A stretch of DNA of 39,029 bases. Source: Bacteroidota bacterium. Lineage in GTDB: Bacteria; Bacteroidota; Bacteroidia; M30B66. Made by a program: the position numbers and the translations under genes. The stretch covers positions 1 through 39,029 of the forward strand of contig JAIXYK010000058.1 in NCBI GenBank assembly GCA_027490225.1. The letters are read 5' to 3'. Below, piece after piece: positions 14,712 to 38,111 of this stretch (positions are counted from its first letter, which is position 1; every line of letters begins with the position of its first letter). Under the pieces are notes generated by a model that was not told where the DNA came from, made no database searches, and saw only the letters and a program-made list of their open reading frames with translations.

Positions 14712-14803
14712 TAAAAAATGAATTAAAACTCACAAAGTTCCCTGCAACAAGGTTACTTCTAAAAACTCAATGACCTAGATGAATATTATATTGAATCACA
14801 ATG

Positions 14804-14879
14804 CCGGCCCAGGGATTGAGCTAAATACCGCCTGAGGCAAAGCCGAAGGAGTATGAGCGAAAGCCCGCCCGGGGCCCAT
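14804..14879. repeat. GC-rich structured intergenic element (copy A)
   Basis: A 76-bp GC-rich block in otherwise AT-rich DNA, ending 6 bp before the stop of the histidine kinase gene. The ends can pair: GGCCCAGGG at 14806-14814 against CCCGGGGCC at 14868-14876, with one mismatch. Inside are the small palindromes GCC-TCA-GGC and GGC-TTT-GCC (minus strand). Read on the minus strand it shares GCTTTCGC, CTCCTTCGG, TCAATC and GGGCCG blocks with the element at 38039-38111. Confidence 0.7.
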
Positions 14880-28587: not shown

Positions 28588-28628
28588 CCTTTGCCTTTCT
28601 AATTCTCACACGCTCTACCTTCCTAAGA

Positions 28629-28694
28629 TGCCCGCACGAGTGGGTGAGCCAAGCACCTTGTGCAGGCGAACACGCGGCCCGCAGGGACGTGCCC
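28629..28694. repeat. GC-rich structured intergenic element (copy B)
   Basis: A GC-rich 66-bp block just downstream of the DoxX-type gene stop (28721, minus). Minus-strand reading: GGGCACGTCCCTGCGGGCCG, then CGTGTTCGC, a GCAC-AAG-GTGC hairpin, GGCTCACCC and CGTGCGGGCA. The outer GCACG and CGTGC can pair. The TTCGC/GCTCA layout resembles copies A and C, though sequence identity is weaker. Confidence 0.6.
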
Positions 28695-28720
28695 AAAAAA
28701 CATTTTTTAATGGTAGTTCC

Positions 28721-38038: not shown

Positions 38039-38111
38039 GGGCGGCAATTCACGCTTTCCGCAATAGCTCCTTCGGAGGCTATTTGCGTCAATCGTGGCCG
38101 CAGGCATTTCG
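38039..38111. repeat. GC-rich structured intergenic element (copy C)
   Basis: A GC-rich block between divergent genes. It contains a near-perfect hairpin, CGCAATAGCTCC-TTC-GGAGGCTATTTGCG (38059-38087, two bulges), flanked by GCTTTC and GTCAATC, then GTGGCCGCAGGC. Blocks GCTTTC(C)GC, CTCCTTCGG, TATTT, TCAATC and GGCCG align in order with copy A (14804-14879, minus strand). Non-coding. Confidence 0.7.

Follow-up and report, generated by a model that had tools for sequence, protein, structure and literature searches.

The GC-rich block at positions 14804–14879 of the analysed stretch of DNA (the window, 39,029 nucleotides) and its two relatives in the same window are copies of one dispersed family, and it is established that copies of this family spread to new intergenic sites while keeping their folded form. 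The structure of the family is supported by covariation, its copies lie between genes without a fixed orientation relative to them, near-identical copies are found at unrelated loci, a T-run stands at one end of the element, and presence or absence varies between species of one genus. In its behaviour, the family is closer to a DNA element that gets copied than to a conventional RNA gene. The explanation that we favour, with moderate confidence, is that each block is a copy of a non-autonomous dispersed element, representing a divergent subfamily of the class-wide Flavo-1 superfamily and dependent on a putative mover.

Copies, covariation and anatomy of the element

The blocks described in a previous sequence-only reading at 14804–14879, 38039 and 28629 are all present there, and they belong to one family, since the model R2 matches all three. 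R2 is a covariance model built from ten copies with boundaries chosen by hand, copy 3 being left out. Searching the whole window with filters off gives exactly three strong matches, the next best having an E-value of 2.9. The elements are as follows:

14800–14877, minus strand: copy 1, full element, from GGGCC (5' outer stem) to GGCATT; core at 14808–14868
14843–14851, minus strand: apical CTCCTTCGG of copy 1
28628–28694, minus strand: copy 3, full element, with a short side arm CCCTGCGGG and a short apical hairpin; core at 28636–28677
28695–28700, minus strand: T-run directly 5' of copy 3 (A on the plus strand)
38039–38109, plus strand: copy 2, full element, with outer stem GCGGC/GCCGC; core at 38049–38098

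Copy 1 begins 9 nt past the stop codon of a histidine-kinase gene. The succession of blocks which had been noticed in both copy 1 and copy 2 occurs twice in the window and in none of 100 dinucleotide-preserving shuffles. The R2 scores are 68.1 bits for 14808–14868 (minus strand) and 55.4 bits for 38049–38098 (plus strand). Since these two copies helped to build the model, only the match to copy 3 (28636–28677, minus strand; 29.0 bits, E = 5.3e-6 in the window search) is independent within the window, and it bears out the proposal that the 28629 element is related to the others. Folding of individual copies as RNA is only mildly better than that of shuffled sequences (z from −1.0 to −3.9 for copies 1 and 2, and 0.0 for copy 3), which means that single sequences prove little, while the comparison between copies does.

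The real test of the family is provided by the genome-wide copies, beyond the window matches. Used as a blastn query against the genome, copy 1 returned four clear relatives (E-values from 8e-7 to 2e-5) and several weak ones. The covariance model scan of the genome, suggested earlier as a check, found further copies beyond the window, with at least 76 at E ≤ 0.01 in the 3.77-Mb genome; this is a lower bound, as 150 of 955 candidates were scored in the first pass. Copy 3 was also recovered by R2 in a local search, and seven of nine other members of the same taxonomic family contain between 1 and 11 R2 copies.

In the alignment of ten copies, 10 of the 17 pairs show double-sided changes, a value as high being reached in 0 of 500 shuffles. 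With 75 distinct copies, 93.1% of the cells pair, double changes are seen in 15 of 17 pairs, and the covariation score is 0.545, compared with 0.155 for shuffled and at most 0.088 for slid alignments; the 75-copy alignment was fitted to the structure, so the ten-copy test is the less biased of the two. The outer stem covaries as well, with a mean complementary run of 4.21 in 66 anchored copies against 3.19 ± 0.09 when the tails are permuted. Together with the genome-wide copies and the near-identical partners presented below, this covariation fully supports the earlier description of a dispersed family whose flanks are fixed and whose hairpins vary: the family is real, and was spotted correctly.

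Read on the strand used in that description, the element is non-coding, 70–160 nt long, and consists of a T-run, GGGC(GC), a side arm, the core, GCGC and GGGCATT, in this order. The fold is a three-way junction, in which an outer stem (GGGCGC/GCGC) meets a side arm that can be replaced and a core hairpin with imperfect pairing. The side arm takes one of three forms: a short CCC..GGG hairpin, seen in copy 3; a long hairpin rich in A and T; or, in copies 1 and 2, a linker only a few bases long. The core follows the order NNG, mismatch, NN, TC, GCC, variable hairpin, GGC, TC, N'N', mismatch, CNN. The central hairpin of copy 2 had been described as different from that of copy 1, and indeed the apical hairpin and the second arm vary freely among copies. 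Between the first two stems, 46 of 78 copies have a C.T mismatch and the other 32 a T.C mismatch, with no other state, and the TC/TC internal loop is nearly invariant in the same 78 copies. On the other strand the core mismatches read as G.A, a type of mismatch that can be stable in both DNA and RNA. At the 5' end, T is found in 88–92% of the 78 copies at positions −1 to −3 and falls to background by about −11; several of these T-runs resemble terminator tails by eye.

The evidence as to which strand folds is split. On the given strand, the twelve basal pairs contain 15 C.A against 1 G.T, an imbalance that speaks for the opposite strand (the one on which Flavo-1 is modelled) as the strand that folds. 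The apical stem, where T.G prevails (at one pair in 54 copies), points the opposite way, yet this is largely one inherited state. A hammerhead-like core, which the three-way form and the GA pairs brought to mind, was set aside since the NN positions are covarying Watson-Crick pairs. The attC sites of integrons also resemble the element, being imperfect hairpins that contain an unpaired spacer and vary in their terminal part. By inspection, the attC boxes RYYYAAC/GTTRRRY are absent from the conserved columns of alignment A4, and the element differs from attC in having an outer junction stem and a side arm.

Relation to the Flavo-1 motif

The sequence-only reading had left the identity of the repeats unconfirmed; they can now be identified as divergent and larger relatives of the Flavo-1 RNA motif (Rfam RF01705; Weinberg et al. 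2010, PMC2864571), which Rfam files as an sRNA and which is among the most abundant bacterial sRNA families listed. With Rfam models at their gathering thresholds (42 bits for Flavo-1) there is no match in the window. The best score of a window copy is that of copy 2, which gives a marginal match on the opposite strand (23.6 bits, E = 0.059 in a 2.5-kb search). A sibling from the same genome (L150) reaches 34.5 bits with E = 5.9e-5 in the same small search, in which one further copy was matched at E = 1.6 and 17 others had no Flavo-1 match, including copies 1 and 3, which gave none up to E = 5. A locus from another taxonomic family (L056) matches both R2 and Flavo-1, the latter on the opposite strand (30.1 bits, E = 0.012), and R2 matches a Flavo-1 locus (L127) at E = 0.004. 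The order of the core stems and the internal mismatches agree with Flavo-1 on the same strand, and for L134 and L150 the alignment is end to end.

Of the 247 genomes sampled from the class Bacteroidia, 95 contain Flavo-1, several of them in at least 18 copies, and the source genome itself also has 24 Flavo-1 matches, some above the cut-off. Flavo-1 copies of other families carry outer stems (GCGTTA/GCGTGA..ACGC), a CCC..GGG arm and a GCCCAAA end; they have the whole junction in common with the window elements, and the Rfam model covers its core alone. The elements studied here thus have in common with Flavo-1 a core hairpin with the GATTGA..GAAAG internal loop on the same modelled strand, a variable apical hairpin, many copies per genome and occurrence in Bacteroidota, and with the copies of other families the outer stem, the side arm and the GCCCAAA end. 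They differ in that the window copies score below the gathering threshold, in that their internal loop is TC/TC (GA/GA on the other strand) where that of Flavo-1 is longer, and in that the Rfam entry describes a core filed as an sRNA and not a dispersed junction element. Considering the matches of L150 and L056 and the junction common to the Flavo-1 copies, the window elements belong to the Flavo-1 superfamily, not to Flavo-1 as set by its threshold.

The strong covariation and the cataloguing of Flavo-1 as an sRNA are both in agreement with a structured non-coding RNA family, whose copies would be transcribed and whose folded RNA would bind a protein or serve as an sRNA or UTR element. To our knowledge, Flavo-1 has no known function. 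Published transcript data from Flavobacterium psychrophilum are on the whole unfavourable to this reading: some 5' transcribed regions coincide with Flavo-1, but the hits are sense or antisense to transcribed regions alike and many fall outside them (PMC9723704). Considering also the distribution of the copies described below, we find an RNA family of this kind rather unlikely.

Dispersal among intergenic sites and between species

Out of 78 copies, 74 are clear of ORFs, and the 73 with both neighbours seen lie between divergent (22), convergent (16) and tandem (35) genes. This absence of an orientation rule relative to genes led to the rejection of a role as transcription terminator or leader, and it also speaks against the RNA family, as does the existence of 76 copies with freely replaced arms. 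A partner with at least 90% and up to 100% core identity was found for 31 of the 78 copies, the flanks being at background identity. Such near-identical copies occupy unrelated intergenic loci, which is again difficult to reconcile with a conventional RNA family. Six pairs of copies are located within 1 kb of each other (L021, L038, L041, L073, L076 and L079), and all six are convergent, an outcome with a probability of (1/4)^6 under random orientation, in a test chosen after the data were seen. One of the convergent pairs encloses an ORF6N-domain gene; as a partner of the element this gene was rejected, since it is absent from G017 and G029.

The copies are not stable between species. Among four species of one genus, the element upstream of htpG (L057, L071) is present in G008 and G003 and absent from G006 and G007, the absences not being base-exact empty sites. 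Between G008 and G003, one pair at this site has changed from T-A to C-G in a compensated manner (read from the alignment by eye), which hints that selection acts at the site itself, as would be expected from a host function. This compensated change at an orthologous site is in favour of the non-coding RNA family, and likewise of a DNA structure that the host maintains through selection and gene conversion, such as the binding site of a nucleoid, repair or recombination protein. The latter could also draw on a subfamily of eight copies (L026, L029–L034 and L039) whose cores are 97–100% identical, slightly less for L026, while their side-arm loops, always 35–38 nt long, show no more similarity than shuffled letters do (61% versus 59.5%). 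A divergent loop beside a near-identical core could mean that the core is under selection, that gene conversion is at work, or that the loop is exchanged when a copy disperses. However, an essential site would not be expected to range from 0 to more than 70 copies in one taxonomic family or to be missing from most genomes of the class, and a host-maintained structure has in our view a very slim chance of being the explanation. The possibility that the side-arm loop acts as a guide to its own locus was rejected, with a score of 9.6 for its own locus and 9.6 for other loci.

Comparison with REP elements and candidate movers

The elements had been called REP-like, which holds in a loose sense: as for the REP/BIME (REPIN) repeats associated with RAYT/TnpAREP, they are short, folded intergenic repeats dispersed in many copies, some of which form inverted pairs. 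The stricter sense does not apply, since a three-way junction of 70–160 nt stands here in place of the 20–65 nt hairpin of REP, the ends consist of a T-run with GGGC and of GGGCATT instead of a 5' GTAG or GTGG foot, and no cognate Y1 transposase flanked by the repeat, that is, no linked RAYT, was found. The proposed check for a RAYT gene led to a single Y1_Tnp gene in the genome, whose motifs (DHVH, WQ and YIANQEEHH) fit subclass 1.2 of TnpAY1; genes of this type are flanked by another hairpin repeat, not by the one studied here. No REP has been reported for this subclass (PMC6006769).

A Flavo-1-type copy located approximately 207 nt from this only Y1_Tnp gene, in addition to the dispersed intergenic hairpins and the convergent pairs, raises the question of whether these are REP/BIME repeats moved by a RAYT (Y1 HUH) transposase which has since been lost from some genomes. 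The tnpA loci, the Y1-free genomes and the co-occurrence data all argue against it. No Flavo-1 match is found near similar tnpA genes at 19 of 20 loci, and R2 copies are near none of 30. Five genomes with Flavo-1 copies (G017, G023, G006, G001 and G007) have no Y1_Tnp, and the first three of them are near complete, contrary to what a RAYT would predict. Across 247 genomes, tnpA is weakly associated with the presence of at least one Flavo-1 copy (p = 0.018) and not significantly with at least ten copies (p = 0.47), both values ignoring kinship. No preference for the leading or lagging strand is seen in G000 (13/25), G197 (8/17) or G029 (11/22, counted manually), which counts against a lagging-strand ssDNA transposon, as this would predict a replication-strand bias. 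Membership in the REP/RAYT system is thus not supported, and movement by a lost RAYT is very unlikely.

For the non-autonomous dispersed element that we favour, the folded strand would be bound and copied by a putative trans-acting enzyme, which may recognise the junction and its mismatches and put copies next to T-runs, any host effect being presumably secondary. This mover is unlikely to be a Y1/RAYT transposase, since the absence of a strand bias, like that of Y1 enzymes, speaks against an IS200/RAYT route. Possible candidates are tyrosine recombinases, other nucleases, or a copying process that goes through RNA. Neither Y1_Tnp nor ORF6N, the two examined, proved to be an enzyme partner. 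More speculatively, and with less than even confidence, Flavo-1 and its relatives may not be an sRNA family at all but a very widespread non-autonomous mobile element of the class Bacteroidia, a single-stranded three-way junction recognised via its conserved G.A mismatches, inserted beside T-runs, and mobilised by enzymes of a class so far unconnected with repeats of this kind. Viewing Flavo-1 as part of a larger, dispersing three-way-junction repeat changes the question from what the RNA does to which enzyme spreads the repeat, which is testable; it also carries the warning that what automatic annotation counts as sRNAs in Bacteroidota may be repeats.

The loci of subclass-1.2-type tnpA genes (L153–L182, from many Bacteroidia) are themselves ringed by short CCCnnnGGG(A/G)TG hairpins, at a density of 1.77 per kb compared with 0.04 per kb in controls taken mostly from other genomes, with two or more hairpins at 19 of 30 loci. 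In the window, a triplicate 84-nt repeat at positions 111–352 holds CCACGAAGTGGTG, a variant of this hairpin, and positions 1–110, at the contig end, are occupied by a low-complexity array of AGTATAA units and related heptamers.
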